A stretch of 47,739 nt of DNA from Candidatus Avelusimicrobium vaccinum (GTDB lineage Bacteria > Elusimicrobiota > Elusimicrobia > Elusimicrobiales > Elusimicrobiaceae). Below, piece by piece: positions 61-28,959 of the stretch. The notes beneath the pieces were generated by a model. It did not search any database, was not told the DNA's origin, and was given only the letters and a program-made list of their open reading frames with translations. The first letter of the stretch is position 1. Every line of letters begins with the position of its first letter. The stretch lies in assembly GCA_902794895.1 (NCBI GenBank), contig CADBIY010000009.1, positions 1 to 47,739 on the forward strand, given 5' to 3'. Both the position numbers and the translations under genes were made by a program.

Positions 61-128
61 AAAATCCACCTGATATTAATTTACTATATCATACTACTTA
101 TTTAAAATGCAGGTCAACTAAAAAAATC

Positions 129-159
129 TAAAAATGCGTTTAAATGATTAAAAATGCGT
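129..159. repeat. Two 11-bp direct repeats, 20-bp period
   Basis: TAAAAATGCGT occurs at 129-139 and 149-159, spaced by about two helical turns, upstream of the tpx operon. The arrangement would suit a tandem operator for an oxidative-stress regulator or an origin iteron. No regulator gene is adjacent. Confidence 0.4.
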
Positions 160-367
160 AAATTTTGTTATTTTTAAATTTTTGGCTATTTTGATATTAA
201 AATCATAAATAAACTTTATTTTGGTTAATTTTAACTAATCAAATCAAAATTTACAGAATTAATTATATTTTATACTTGATTTCATACATAATTTTTAAAA
301 GAATAAAAAAGACCTATTAAGATAAAATTTTATATACTTTCTTCATACTATATTTAAGAGGTACAAA

Positions 368-874
368 ATGGCTCAACCAATTCAAATGAACGGCCTTCCG
401 GTGGTAATTCATGGAAAAACCTTAAAAATAGGGGATAAAGCACCCGATTTTAAATTAGTAGGTAATTCTTTAGAATTAATTCAAAAAAAAGATTTTGAAG
501 GAAAAATTCTGATTCTTTCTTGTGTGCCGTCGGTAGATACTCCGGTATGTGATGTGGAAACACGCCGTTTTAATGTATTAGCCGGTAAATTGTCCGACCA
601 AGTACGTATTGTAACAGTCAGTAAAGATCTTCCTTTTGCTCAAGCACGTTGGTGTGCTGCGGCCGGGATTCAACAAGTGTTAACGGCTTCCGATTACCGA
701 AATTTCGGTTTTGCAACCGATTATGGGGTATTATTAGAAGATTTAGGGCTATTAACCCGTGCTGTATTCATTATTGATAAAGAAGGAATAATCCGGTATA
801 TACAATTTGTACCGGAAATATCTCACGAACCTAATTATGACGAGATTTTAGCAGAAATAAAAAAATTATTATAG
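368..874 (+). CDS. tpx: Thiol peroxidase (Tpx)
   Basis: Atypical 2-Cys peroxiredoxin that reduces hydrogen peroxide and alkyl hydroperoxides in the cytoplasm using thioredoxin. The 168-residue length is normal for Tpx. The peroxidatic cysteine is C61 in SVDTPVCDVETRRFN and the resolving cysteine is C96 in ARWCAAAG, the spacing typical of Tpx rather than AhpC or Bcp. ATG at 368 is preceded by AAGAGG (356-361). It is the first gene of a five-gene run in the same direction (gap 12 bp to the next), so it is probably co-transcribed with the superoxide reductase and flavodiiron genes. No frameshift is seen. Confidence 0.95.
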   Translation: MAQPIQMNGLPVVIHGKTLKIGDKAPDFKLVGNSLELIQKKDFEGKILILSCVPSVDTPVCDVETRRFNVLAGKLSDQVRIVTVSKDLPFAQARWCAAAGIQQVLTASDYRNFGFATDYGVLLEDLGLLTRAVFIIDKEGIIRYIQFVPEISHEPNYDEILAEIKKLL

Positions 875-886
875 GGGGAATGATAT

Positions 887-1270
887 ATGTCTAAATTACA
901 CGAAATTTATACTTGTTCCGTTTGTGGTAACCGTGTAGAAGTAGTCCATGAGGGGGCCGGCCAACTGGTTTGTTGCGGACAGCCTATGAAATTACAGATA
1001 GCCGGTACTTCTGACGGTGCAGCCGAAAAACATGTTCCGGTTATTGAAAAAGTAACCGGCGGATACCGTGTGCAGGTAGGAAGCGTAGAACATCCGTCAA
1101 CAGAAGCCCATTATATTGAATGGATTGAATTAATCTGCCCATGCGGTAAAGTACAGCGGAAATATTTAAAACCCGGCGATAAACCGGAAGCATTTTTTGC
1201 GACGGATGCTGAAAAAGTAACCGTTCGTGAATATTGTAATTTACACGGTTTGTGGCAAGCCGAAAATTAG
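887..1270 (+). CDS. dfx: Desulfoferrodoxin (2Fe superoxide reductase)
   Basis: Reduces superoxide to hydrogen peroxide without releasing oxygen, a hallmark defence of anaerobes; electrons usually come from rubredoxin. The protein has 127 residues with an N-terminal desulforedoxin domain (FeCys4 centre from C10, C13, C29, C30) and a C-terminal catalytic neelaredoxin domain whose ligands are visible: H49, H69, H75, C117 and H120 (CNLHGLW). So it is the two-centre class. The GGGGGAATGAT just before the ATG supplies a ribosome site. The peroxide it makes would be removed by the upstream Tpx, and a rubredoxin donor is encoded three genes downstream. Confidence 0.95.
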
Positions 1271-1296
1271 TTATTATCAAAGAGGAAATATAAGTT

Positions 1297-2490
1297 ATGC
1301 AAGCAGTTAAAGTATCGGAAAAAGTCTATTGGGTAGGTGCAATTGATTGGAATATACGCGATTTTCATGGTTATTCCACAAAACGTGGTACCACGTATAA
1401 CGCGTTTTTAATTTTAACAGATAAAATTACACTCATTGATACGGTAAAAAAAGAATTTTATCCGGAAATGATGGAACGTATTTCCAGTGTGATTGATCCT
1501 AAAAAAATAGAAATTATTATTTCTAATCACTCCGAATTAGACCATTCCGGTGCATTACCGCAAACAGTTGCTGCCGTGGAACCGGCGGAAGTATATGTTT
1601 CTGCGATGGGACTAAAGAATTTAACGGGTCATTTTCACCGGGATTTAAAATTAAAGGTAGTTAAAACCGGGGACAAAATTGATATTGGCGGAGATACTAT
1701 TTCTTTCGTTGAAGCCCGTATGTTGCATTGGCCGGATAGTATGTTTTCTTATTTAGAAAAAGAAAATATTTTATTTAGCAATGATGTTTTTGGTATGCAC
1801 TATGCCACCAATCGACTGTTTGATGATGAAAATGATGAACGTATTTGGCTGACTCAAGCGGAAAAATATTACGCTAATATTGTGTTACCGTATAGTGATA
1901 TTGTGTTGCGATTCTTAGAGCAAGTGAAAAAAATGGGTTTATCGCCGAAAATTATTGCGCCGGACCATGGGTTTTTATGGCGGAAGGATCCTTCAAAAAT
2001 CGTACAACTGTATGCAAAATGGGCTGCGCAAGCACCTAAAAATAAAGCGGTGGTTGTATACGACACAATGTGGGGAAGCACGGAACAAATGGCACGTCAA
2101 ATTGCAGACGGTCTGCGTGCCGGAGGAAGCGAAGTAAAAGTGCTTTCTATGCATAGCAACGACCGTAGCAAAGTGGCATTAGAATTATTAGATTCCTCTG
2201 CTCTTGTGATTGGATCCCCTGTGTTAAACAGTCAAATTTTCCCGTCGATGGCAGATGTTCTGTGTTACTTAAAAGGATTACGCAAAAAAGGCCTTATCGG
2301 GGCGGCGTTTGGATCTTTTGGTTGGAACGGATCTCCTATCGATAGTTTGACGAAAACATTGGAAGAAATGGGCGCAGAAGTTATTTGCCCGGCGGTCAAA
2401 AGTCCTTTTGTACCCGATGAAAATAATAAAAAAGAATGTTTTGAATTAGGTCAACAAATCAGCAAAAAACTGAGTGAAAAAATAAAATGA
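1297..2490 (+). CDS. fprA: Flavodiiron protein (rubredoxin:oxygen oxidoreductase, FprA/Roo type)
   Basis: Reduces oxygen to water (or nitric oxide to nitrous oxide) with electrons from rubredoxin. The 397 residues comprise an N-terminal metallo-beta-lactamase-like diiron domain (ligands H78, E80, D82 in NHSELDH, then H144, D163 and H224) and a C-terminal flavodoxin domain from about residue 252 (VVVYDTMWGSTEQMA, the FMN phosphate loop). Length matches two-domain FDPs with no fused rubredoxin, consistent with a separate rubredoxin gene downstream. It has AGAGGA before its ATG and overlaps the next gene by 4 bp (ATGA). Substrate preference between O2 and NO cannot be read from the sequence. Confidence 0.95.
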   Translation: MQAVKVSEKVYWVGAIDWNIRDFHGYSTKRGTTYNAFLILTDKITLIDTVKKEFYPEMMERISSVIDPKKIEIIISNHSELDHSGALPQTVAAVEPAEVYVSAMGLKNLTGHFHRDLKLKVVKTGDKIDIGGDTISFVEARMLHWPDSMFSYLEKENILFSNDVFGMHYATNRLFDDENDERIWLTQAEKYYANIVLPYSDIVLRFLEQVKKMGLSPKIIAPDHGFLWRKDPSKIVQLYAKWAAQAPKNKAVVVYDTMWGSTEQMARQIADGLRAGGSEVKVLSMHSNDRSKVALELLDSSALVIGSPVLNSQIFPSMADVLCYLKGLRKKGLIGAAFGSFGWNGSPIDSLTKTLEEMGAEVICPAVKSPFVPDENNKKECFELGQQISKKLSEKIK

Positions 2491-25049: not shown

Positions 25050-25073
25050 ATGAAAAATAAGGAGTGTGTATGA
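25050..25073 (+). other. Seven-codon upstream ORF overlapping the pilin 1 start
   Basis: ATG at 25050 encodes MKNKECV and stops with a TGA that overlaps the pilin ATG (ATGA at 25070-25073). The pilin ribosome site AAGGAG is inside this mini-ORF. TATGAAAAAT is directly repeated at 25049-25058 and 25069-25078. It may couple or dampen pilin translation, or be chance. Confidence 0.35.
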
Positions 25074-25648
25074 AAAATCACAATACTGGCCGTTTAGGCT
25101 TTACGTTAATAGAATTATTAGTTGTTGTATTAATTATCGGTATTTTGGCCAGTGTTGCCTTGCCGCAATACACAAAAGCGGTCGATAAAAGCCGCGTGGT
25201 GCGCTATTTGCCGCTAATGAAAGAAATTGCTGATGACGCAGAAAGATATTATTTGGAGAATGATGCCTATCCCGCTTCTGCCAGCGGTACAGCCATTAAC
25301 AAAGCGCTGGACATCAACTTGCCGGAGAATTTTGTGAGCAATGAGGTTCAGTCTTTCTCATTTACAAATGCCAACTATTCGTCTATTTTACTTGTGTTAA
25401 AAAAACCGAACGTTACGTTGGCGCGGATGTTAAAACATTCTAAATATGCCGGGGAAAAGGACGGATATACGGCTTGTTCCTCTTCCAATGCAAAAATTTT
25501 TAAAAACGTTTGCCAAAGTTTATGCGGACATAAAACCGTGTGTACGCGTATGTTTTATTATGATCAAGGCCCCAGTTGCACGATTGGAAGTGCAGACCCT
25601 ACGTTTTGTTGGCGCGGAATTACAGAGACGGATCCGGCCTATCAATAG
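25070..25648 (+). CDS. Type IV pilin-like protein (pilin 1)
   Basis: A 192-residue class III-signal protein: short positive leader, prepilin-peptidase site G|FTLIELLVVVLIIGILA with the conserved Glu at +5, then the hydrophobic helix and LPQYTKAVDKSR. The globular part has at least six Cys (CSSSNAKIFKNVCQSLC...), probably disulfide-rich. Major or minor pilin or pseudopilin status cannot be decided. ATG 25070 is chosen because AAGGAG (25059-25064) ends five bases before it; a GTG two codons upstream overlaps that site. The other T4P machinery genes are not in this window; ComEC is. Confidence 0.9.
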   Translation: MKNHNTGRLGFTLIELLVVVLIIGILASVALPQYTKAVDKSRVVRYLPLMKEIADDAERYYLENDAYPASASGTAINKALDINLPENFVSNEVQSFSFTNANYSSILLVLKKPNVTLARMLKHSKYAGEKDGYTACSSSNAKIFKNVCQSLCGHKTVCTRMFYYDQGPSCTIGSADPTFCWRGITETDPAYQ

Positions 25649-27673: not shown

Positions 27674-28084
27674 TTATTTACGTTCTTTTTTTAACTGGTC
27701 TAGTAAACCGTTAATAAATTTGCTGGAGTTTTCGGTTGAATATTTTTTTGCAAGTTCAATGGCCTCATCAATGATCGCAGGGACCGGTGTTTTTTCATGA
27801 CTAAAGATCATTTCGTACGTGGCCATGCGTAAAATCGAACGGTCCACTACCGACATGCGGGCAATCGTCCAATTTTTTGCATACGAGGAAACTAACTGGT
27901 CGATTTTGGGTAGATTTTGCAATGTGCCGGTAATTAAATCTTCACAAAAACTATAACAATCGCCAAGTTCTTTTTTGAAGTCGGCGGCATAAGAGGTCAA
28001 GGAAACGGCATCATTATTTTTGGCACTGTCTGCATAATAAAGAGATTGTAAGGCGCATTCACGGGCCATTCTGCGGTTGCTCAT
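27674..28084 (-). CDS. nusB: Transcription antitermination factor NusB
   Basis: Binds boxA RNA with S10 in rRNA antitermination. 136 residues, normal size, all-alpha, with the typical N-terminus NRRMARECALQSLYY, the RMSVVDRSILRMATYEMIF core and AIIDEAIELAKKYSTENSSKFINGLLD at the C-terminus. It has a GAGGGGAAT site before the ATG and is followed 3 bp later by ligA. Confidence 0.95.
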   Translation of the reverse strand: MSNRRMARECALQSLYYADSAKNNDAVSLTSYAADFKKELGDCYSFCEDLITGTLQNLPKIDQLVSSYAKNWTIARMSVVDRSILRMATYEMIFSHEKTPVPAIIDEAIELAKKYSTENSSKFINGLLDQLKKERK

Positions 28085-28158
28085 AGATTCCCCTCTTAAA
28101 AAAATTGTAAAAGATTTACTCTATTTTAGCAAATTTCACGCAATAGTGGGAGGAGAGA

Positions 28159-28671
28159 TTACAGTTCAACATCTTTATAGATCCAACCTTGATTTTCAAG
28201 AGATTTACAAATGGCGCGGCCCAAATCGGTTGTTTCAGTAATACATATATTTAACCATTTATCGTTAGTTCCTTGTTCTCCCCACGCTTCTTCACTTCCC
28301 TTATATATATAAAAAGCATAGCTGTCACCTTTTCTATATAATTCGCCGTAACATTTAAGAGAATCACAATTCATTTCATATTCAAAGTATTTGGTTGTAT
28401 ACAAATTGTCATCAAATTCTCCACCTTGTAAAGTACCAGCAATATCTAAATTAGGCAAATGTATGCCTTGTGCAGGGAAACCGCCATTTTCCAGTAAAAA
28501 TAAATCTACACTATTTTCAATAGTTTTTACATTCAATAAAAGTTCCGTTAATCGGCTTTTTTCAACCGCTTTGTTATATTGTGGCAAAGCGATGGCGGCC
28601 AAAATGCCGATAATTAAAACAACGACTAATAATTCAATCAAGGTGAAACCTTGAGTCTGTTTTGTGTACAT
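28159..28671 (-). CDS. Type IV pilin-like protein (pilin 2)
   Basis: A 170-residue pilin-like protein: leader MYTKQTQG, then FTLIELLVVVLIIGILAAIA with Glu at +5, and LPQYNKAVEKSR, almost identical to pilin 1 over the first 35 mature residues and then divergent (four Cys, acidic C-terminus). That shape (constant N-helix, variable head) is usual for pilin families. AAGGAG lies six bases before the ATG. Its mRNA has a leader of about 190 nt with elaborate structure. Major or minor status unknown. Confidence 0.9.
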   Translation of the reverse strand: MYTKQTQGFTLIELLVVVLIIGILAAIALPQYNKAVEKSRLTELLLNVKTIENSVDLFLLENGGFPAQGIHLPNLDIAGTLQGGEFDDNLYTTKYFEYEMNCDSLKCYGELYRKGDSYAFYIYKGSEEAWGEQGTNDKWLNICITETTDLGRAICKSLENQGWIYKDVEL

Positions 28672-28686
28672 AGTTTTCTCCTTTTA

Positions 28687-28864
28687 GTCGGACACAAAAA
28701 ACGACGATATCAAAGCATAGAGAGTGGCCTTGATAATCGCCGTCTTACCTACCCCTTGCGGAGTAGGTAAAAAACAGGCGATTATTCTCGGACTCTCTAT
28801 AGAATCTTTCGCAAGATTCCATGCAAAGGCTCGCCCTTTGCATCCGACAATAATCTCAAATTAT
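28687..28864 (-). promoter_or_regulatory. Candidate attenuator or riboswitch-like leader RNA of pilin 2
   Basis: Read on the minus strand, 5' to 3': GTCGG (28848-28844); hairpin ATGCAAAGG/CCTTTGCAT (28843-28835/28829-28821); hairpin GAATCTT-GCGA-AAGATTC (28819-28802); TAGAGAGT (28799-28792) pairing with ACTCTCTA (28725-28718); ATAATCGCC (28785-28777) with GGCGATTAT (28741-28733); 11-bp hairpin capped by GCAA (28770-28745). Alternatively 28742-28728 pairs with 28715-28702 (14 bp), followed directly by T6 (28701-28696): a terminator. The two folds are mutually exclusive. Two GNRA loops appear only on this strand. TCCGAC (28692-28687) can pair with the initial GTCGGA. Not matched to any family I know. 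Confidence 0.7.
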
Positions 28865-28870
28865 AGTTTC

Positions 28871-28901
28871 ATTATACAAATTATTTTTGTTCTGTTATCA
28901 A
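28871..28901 (-). promoter_or_regulatory. Pilin 2 promoter
   Basis: Minus strand TTGATA (28896-28901), 19-bp spacer, TATAAT (28871-28876). A second TATAAT lies at 28860-28865. Either would start the RNA just before the structured leader. Confidence 0.55.
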
Positions 28902-28931
28902 AAAAAGAGGTATTTATGCAGAAAAAACTAG

Positions 28932-28959
28932 TTGCCGGGGTGTTTGTAATTTGTATAAT
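28932..28959 (+). promoter_or_regulatory. Promoter of the small lipoprotein, leaderless type
   Basis: TTGCCG (28932-28937), 16-bp spacer, TATAAT (28954-28959), six bases, ATG (28966). No Shine-Dalgarno. Confidence 0.65.

Follow-up and report, generated by a model that had tools for sequence, protein, structure and literature searches.

The leader and its gene

In the window (the whole 47,739-nt stretch of DNA analysed here, from the gut bacterium Candidatus Avelusimicrobium vaccinum), the region 28084-28950 is a variable spot, located between a small lipoprotein gene adjacent to infC and nusB. It includes a gene for a type IV pilin-like protein, preceded by a promoter and a long structured leader (Table 1). 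A promoter scan gives this leader a score of 10 out of 12, with ATAACA at 28898 and a TATAAT -10 box. A 241-nt region folds at -82.9 kcal/mol, compared to -50.1 +/- 4.2 for dinucleotide shuffles (z -7.7), with none of 200 shuffles as good.

Table 1. Features of the leader and its gene in the window, and loci of two features found in other copies.
Feature	Position or loci	Strand	Remark	Basis
-10 box TATAAT of the leader promoter	28876-28871	minus		read from sequence
P1 5' strand, GATTATT-G-TCGG	28855-28844	minus	closes the three-way junction; putative anti-antiterminator role	cross-copy comparison
Hairpin H1	28842-28822	minus	8 bp, GCGAG loop	folding and covariation
Hairpin H2	28819-28802	minus	7 bp, GCGA loop	folding and covariation
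P4 5' strand, ATAGAGAGT	28800-28792	minus	hypervariable arm of the putative antiterminator; in the junction in the other fold	
Shared strand, P1 3' / P5 5'	28791-28777	minus		sequence and covariation
P1 3' strand, CCGA-G-AATAATC	28791-28780	minus	AATAATC at 28786-28780	
P5 5' strand, ATAATCGCC	28785-28777	minus	second arm, 5' side	
Hairpin H3	28770-28745	minus	11 bp, GCAA loop	covariation
Shared strand, P5 3' / terminator 5'	28743-28728	minus		sequence and cross-copy comparison
P5 3' strand, GGCGATTAT	28741-28733	minus	pairs with ATAATCGCC at 28785-28777	
P4 3' strand, ACTCTCTAT	28725-28717	minus	terminator loop in the other fold	
Terminator 3' strand, GCTTTGATATCGTCGT	28716-28701	minus		duplex test and sequence
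U-run TTTTTT of the intrinsic terminator	28701-28696	minus	kept in nearly all copies	
Shine-Dalgarno AAGGAG of the regulated gene	28683-28678	minus		sequence
Regulated gene, type IV pilin-like protein, 170 aa	28671-28159	minus	ATG at 28671	
Added hairpin of subtype C	L194-L198, L200-L202, L210, L211, L248-L267			
Upstream AGGAG, examples	L004, L008, L166, L211, L216			

Three competing helices are present in the leader (minus strand 28855-28696), namely P1, a long arm composed of P4 and P5, and a terminator. P1 encloses the hairpins H1 (28842-28822) and H2 (28819-28802), and the strand 28785-28777 has a double use, in P1 or in P5. P5 is extended by P4, which pairs 28800-28792 with 28725-28717 over 9 bp. 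The strand 28741-28733 is likewise used twice, in P5 or in the terminator helix, where 28743-28728 pairs with 28716-28701, followed by six T. An intrinsic terminator (28743-28696) is therefore present, as a sequence feature kept in relatives, between the promoter and the start codon, together with a conserved and mutually exclusive candidate antiterminator, as P4/P5 and the terminator both use 28741-28733. The energies of the two folds are close in the window copy (-73.8 vs -69.7 kcal/mol).

A sequence-only reading of this DNA had proposed an attenuator-type leader with mutually exclusive folds, and on re-reading the sequence all of the pairings and coordinates it gave are present. The P4 arm it described is real, but one pair longer than the eight it listed. 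The three-way junction, which it closed by pairing GTCGGA with the TCCGA side, is conserved and also longer than noted, with GATTATT-TCGG facing CCGA-AATAATC. The other partner proposed for GTCGGA, a TCCGAC beside the ribosome site, lacks conservation, since every relative has a different sequence downstream of the U-run.

Covariation in the competing helices

A blastn search in 100 relatives added seven matches from five genomes; six of the seven lie immediately upstream of a pilin gene, L003 being the exception. Two structures were then scored: S2, containing the long arm, and S1, containing the junction and the terminator. On six subtype-A sequences, S2 is 96.0% paired with 16 double-changed pairs, and S1 is 95.7% paired with 14; the covariation scores of both are above those of all 500 shuffles and of slid controls (for S1, 0.329 vs 0.197 shuffled, 0/500). 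The six sequences were used to build a covariance model, R1; 100 matched regions were fetched, the matches aligned, and a second model, R2, was made from 48 relatives. On these 48 sequences, 93.9% of the cells of S2 are paired and 33 of its 42 pairs have changed on both sides, with a covariation score of 0.676 compared to 0.248 for shuffled alignments (0/500) and 0.08-0.14 for slid controls.

The strongest covariation signal comes from P4, which is hypervariable with its complementarity retained (8/8 pairs double-changed, 98.2% paired). All 6 core pairs of H1 show double changes (98.6% paired), as do 9/9 pairs of H3 (98.8% paired), these counts and those for P4 being taken from a 48-sequence alignment that was fitted to S2. 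Because of this fitting, I also tested the bare strands for duplex energy, in segments cut with the S2-fitted alignment but with pairs not scored on it. By this alignment-free measure, cognate P4 strands pair at -8.5 kcal/mol vs -1.3 kcal/mol for non-cognate strands, with a median rank of 0, and cognate strands are likewise favored for the terminator (-24.8 vs -18.0 kcal/mol), P1 (-13.3 vs -10.2) and P5 (-22.7 vs -19.2). The covariation that the sequence-only reading had called for in relatives is strong. H1 and H2 have loops that are conserved only loosely, an uncommon trait in a binding pocket for small molecules.

Subtypes

Many pairs of P1 and of the terminator are invariant in subtype A, where their support is cross-type change and not within-type covariation. 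Subtype C, which surfaced with model R2, is longer (~212 nt), with CTGTTTTTGGA / TCCAAAAACAG as its P1 and ACGGCTGTT / AACAGCCGT as its terminator. From subtypes A/B to subtype C, the changes in P1, P5 and the terminator are concerted. The energies are -10.2 and -13.2 within types and -5.5 and -5.9 between types for P1, -13.4 and -15.0 within and ~-10 between for P5, and -17.0 and -23.6 within and ~-13.4 between for the terminator. The strongest evidence for the use of all three competing helices is such a strand change, with a matching change in each.

Subtype C also possesses an added hairpin, whose apical loop of 9 nt is conserved without an obvious partner and is mostly GCUGAUCCC or NCUAAUUAC. 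A kissing interaction of this loop with the H2 loop was considered and then dropped; judged by eye, it fits a few copies and fails in others. A further subtype, D, is a small group. The short motifs GGAA, TCC, GGGTTA and GGCTC recur in the subtypes.

Distribution

With model R1, the element was detected in 37 of the 90 family genomes and 47 of the 341 phylum genomes. With R2, matches were found in 82 of the 341 Elusimicrobiota genomes and, with more candidates scored in the family, in 65 of 90 (41 of the 51 good genomes), for a total of 225 matches as a sum of rows and up to 19 per genome. The genome of the window has six, the weakest at E 0.001. In 30 genomes of unrelated groups, chosen for chance matches to an 18-nt pattern, nothing was found at E <= 0.1, and absence outside the phylum rests on these 30. 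In genome contigs, an exact 26-mer pattern was not found, while a degenerate pattern returned 43 stretches, of which only four, all from Elusimicrobiota, contain the element. Pattern searches of viral contigs gave 1 and 43 matches, none with the element, and the 16-nt P1 motif in 43 viral stretches is in every case a chance occurrence.

No arrays of the element were found. At one locus, two tandem copies lie 46 nt apart before a TibC/GT9-type glycosyltransferase gene (L177, 1471-1658 and 1705-1893, reverse strand); a tandem arrangement is known for some riboswitches.

Downstream genes and genomic setting

The copies are oriented with respect to the genes that follow them. Of 127 called downstream genes, 113 run in the same direction as the leader (p = 2e-20, a value that is too small since copies from related genomes are not independent), compared to about half of the upstream genes (66 to 55 in orientation). 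The possibility of a dispersed repeat, raised in the sequence-only reading, is answered by this: the copies are dispersed but gene-linked. The gene begins a median of 43 nt after the U-run, and in 120 of 143 copies a Shine-Dalgarno sequence and start codon follow the U-run by no more than 130 nt. Many copies have their own promoter, and of 47 copies whose upstream gene is divergent, 31 have an extended -10 box upstream.

A pilin gene does lie directly downstream in the window, as had been noted, but across copies the leader is not pilin-specific. Pilins stand behind about half (~51) of the first 109 copies and behind 2 of the 6 copies in the window's own genome, where 2 of 58 pilin-type genes carry the leader. 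The 58 are pilin-type N-terminal matches spread over many contigs of this 1.45-Mb genome, most of them without such a leader; a pilin-type match is also found in the window at 25064-25648 on the plus strand. The other linked genes encode DNA methyltransferases (including EcoRI-type and a type III enzyme), glycosyltransferases (GT8, GT61, LicD, TibC/GT9), a sulfatase-family protein, a radical SAM/SPASM protein, UbiA, an outer-membrane protein, zinc-ribbon proteins, putative lipoproteins and a LeoBC-like defence protein. The regulated set, of at least two hundred genes across the phylum, would consist mostly of surface and accessory genes. At L153, the gene behind the leader copy (118-2406, minus strand) encodes a dynamin-like protein that matches the PADLOC LeoBC model at E 1e-86.

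At the window locus, 29 relatives have nusB and a similar promoter region without a recognisable pilin upstream, and the few relatives inspected carry another small gene, or no gene, at this position. Leader and pilin are both missing in the 29 relatives, which marks the position of the pair as accessory. Two intact-looking leaders, L003 (1500-1665) and L049 (773-938), have no plausible gene behind them and lie beside a convergent DNA polymerase III alpha gene; they are perhaps remnants after gene loss.

Two features recur outside of the leader proper. An SD-like AGGAG without a start codon lies ~40-50 nt upstream of P1, ~25 nt after the -10 box, and such a word is present upstream of P1 in 46 of 127 copies, compared to 16% expected from shuffles. 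In L094, L110, L131, L152, L189, L198 and L202, a second small hairpin, GTAAGCC...GGCTTA or similar, is found just upstream of the leader.

Comparison with known RNA families

At the gathering threshold, the window had no Rfam match, and the only families returned for 15 relatives were 5S rRNA and tRNA; a permissive search of Rfam 15 (E <= 5) gave nothing relevant. The leader thus matches no aptamer family of the known riboswitch classes, and the absence of T-box and c-di-GMP motifs reported in the sequence-only reading agrees with Rfam. The literature search found no paper on such an RNA in Elusimicrobiota; a key survey of bacterial RNA motifs lay outside this search, and a prior description is possible. 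As no known family with the same parts came up, I refer to the leader as a new family of a known kind of device.

The same three-state logic of anti-antiterminator, antiterminator and terminator is found in the Bacillus pyr attenuators, where a 5' helix blocks the antiterminator under the control of PyrR, and so permits the terminator. In contrast to these, the leader has no Rfam match, its 5' element is a three-way junction, and it precedes surface and accessory genes instead of pyrimidine genes. Transcription-terminating riboswitches of the purine and SAM types have a similar 5' domain with a closing helix that shares the antiterminator strand, but the leader has no Rfam 15 aptamer and its loops are loosely conserved. 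T-box leaders exchange terminator and antiterminator upstream of genes in the same way; Rfam finds no T-box in the leader, which does not precede amino-acid genes in the sets examined. The tRNA-sensing role suggested in the sequence-only reading, or any other ligand, finds no support. The c-di-GMP riboswitches (GEMM) occur before pilus genes in other bacteria, and the leader resembles them in its three-way layout with two hairpins, in the pilin genes downstream and in the presence of GGDEF proteins. However, the stem sequences of H1 and H2 vary freely, unlike the GEMM core, and neither the c-di-GMP-I nor the c-di-GMP-II class matches at E <= 5.

Ribosome-mediated attenuation through a leader peptide was rejected, as a Shine-Dalgarno sequence, start and short ORF are found in only 21 of 143 copies. 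Among these 21, the ORFs shown have mostly TTG starts, and the peptides are unrelated apart from those of close homologues.

A model for switching, and its alternatives

Partition functions were computed for the growing transcript of 105 copies, corresponding to equilibrium folding and not kinetics. Before the 3' strand of P5 is made, P1 averages 12 pairs; with P4 complete, it is down to 0.6 pairs and P4/P5 reaches 22, exceeding P1 in 102 of the 105 copies. In the full RNA, the terminator exceeds P4/P5 in 69 copies, while the full-length minimum-energy fold contains the terminator in 79 and the antiterminator in 27, one copy being counted in both. Since both minimum-energy outcomes occur among the copies, energy does not settle the default state.

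The leader is, very probably, a cis-acting transcription attenuator belonging to a new RNA family, confined to Elusimicrobiota as far as tested, and the claim of an unrecognised attenuator-type leader is thereby supported, by the lack of an Rfam match, the strong covariation and the gene linkage. The three helices, their mutual exclusion, their conservation and their linkage to genes are shown by comparing the copies, and a riboswitch-like layout of anti-antiterminator, antiterminator and terminator is the best reading of them. In this layout, the nascent 5' leader would first form the three-way junction of P1, H1 and H2. The later-emerging GGCGATTAT would then invade P1 and pair with its 3' strand, forming P5, which its private arm P4 extends; the long P4/P5 arm would act as the antiterminator. 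The last strand to emerge could pair with ACGGCGATTATCAAGG instead, giving the terminator with its U-run. Without help, the antiterminator would form ahead of the terminator and allow the gene to be transcribed, whereas a signal holding the three-way junction would block P5, let the terminator form and turn the gene off. From established knowledge of attenuators, I infer that termination is conditional in the cell, along with the default state and direction of the switch and the role of the 5' junction as sensor.

What the signal may be can be considered within this attenuator reading. As a special case, the leader could be a true riboswitch, in which a small molecule (for example a nucleotide second messenger) binds the junction and stabilises P1, leading to termination. 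The order of its parts is canonical, as the folded domain comes at the 5' end and is closed by the helix that provides the switching strand; there are several copies per genome and one tandem arrangement, and many copies have GNRA-like loops on H1 and H2. Nevertheless, the junction has few strictly conserved unpaired bases and no similarity to c-di-GMP or other Rfam riboswitches, so that this case appears plausible but somewhat short of an even chance. GGDEF proteins are encoded in 89 of the 90 family genomes, making a c-di-GMP-type signal possible there; as they also occur in genomes where no copy was found, they do not discriminate, and such a signal is not indicated. Alternatively, a protein or other macromolecule could bind the 5' domain or the terminator region and set read-through, in the manner of PyrR and TRAP. 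The three-state layout fits protein-controlled leaders, and both the recurrent short motifs and the conserved 9-nt loop of the subtype-C hairpin speak for this reading; yet the motifs owe most of their conservation to being used twice, in helices that compete, and there is no candidate protein, a CsrA-controlled leader being excluded by the absence of CsrA from all 90 family genomes, with positive controls. I consider a protein signal rather unlikely.

It is also conceivable that there is no dedicated ligand, and that a bistable leader diversifies surface genes by splitting the population or by responding to temperature or the speed of the polymerase. The closeness of the folds in energy and the two minimum-energy outcomes agree with this, as does the resemblance of the linked genes to those commonly phase-variable elsewhere (pilins, LPS-type glycosyltransferases, methyltransferases), but a bare bistable hairpin would not need a conserved 5' junction with H1 and H2, which makes this explanation improbable. 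Finally, the dispersal of copies in accessory spots, and the absence of the nusB-locus leader and pilin in 29 relatives, might be expected of an element acting as DNA and not RNA, such as an attC-like recombination site, a REP palindrome or another dispersed repeat. Against this stand a polarised structure with promoter, U-run, Shine-Dalgarno sequence and start codon, a fixed polarity to downstream genes (113/127), the concerted change of three competing helices, and the lack of arrays and of copies in the viral contigs checked; an attC site or dispersed DNA repeat was rejected on the grounds of this polarity, and a DNA-level element is highly improbable.

Significance

To my knowledge, little is known about gene regulation in Elusimicrobiota. 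The leader described here represents a large and well-supported orphan attenuator family, with 225 matches in one bacterial family and up to 19 in a genome. More speculatively, and with odds against it that are not long, it could be a new riboswitch-like or protein-sensing class of RNA with its own subtypes, governing a phylum-wide regulon of surface and accessory genes in response to a signal that no RNA is known to sense. The base-by-base map of the competing helices makes the switch directly testable in vitro, and a ligand screen can draw on the many copies. A single signal would tie many surface and accessory genes together, and the family suggests a way for a common RNA leader to keep scattered, variable genes under joint control.
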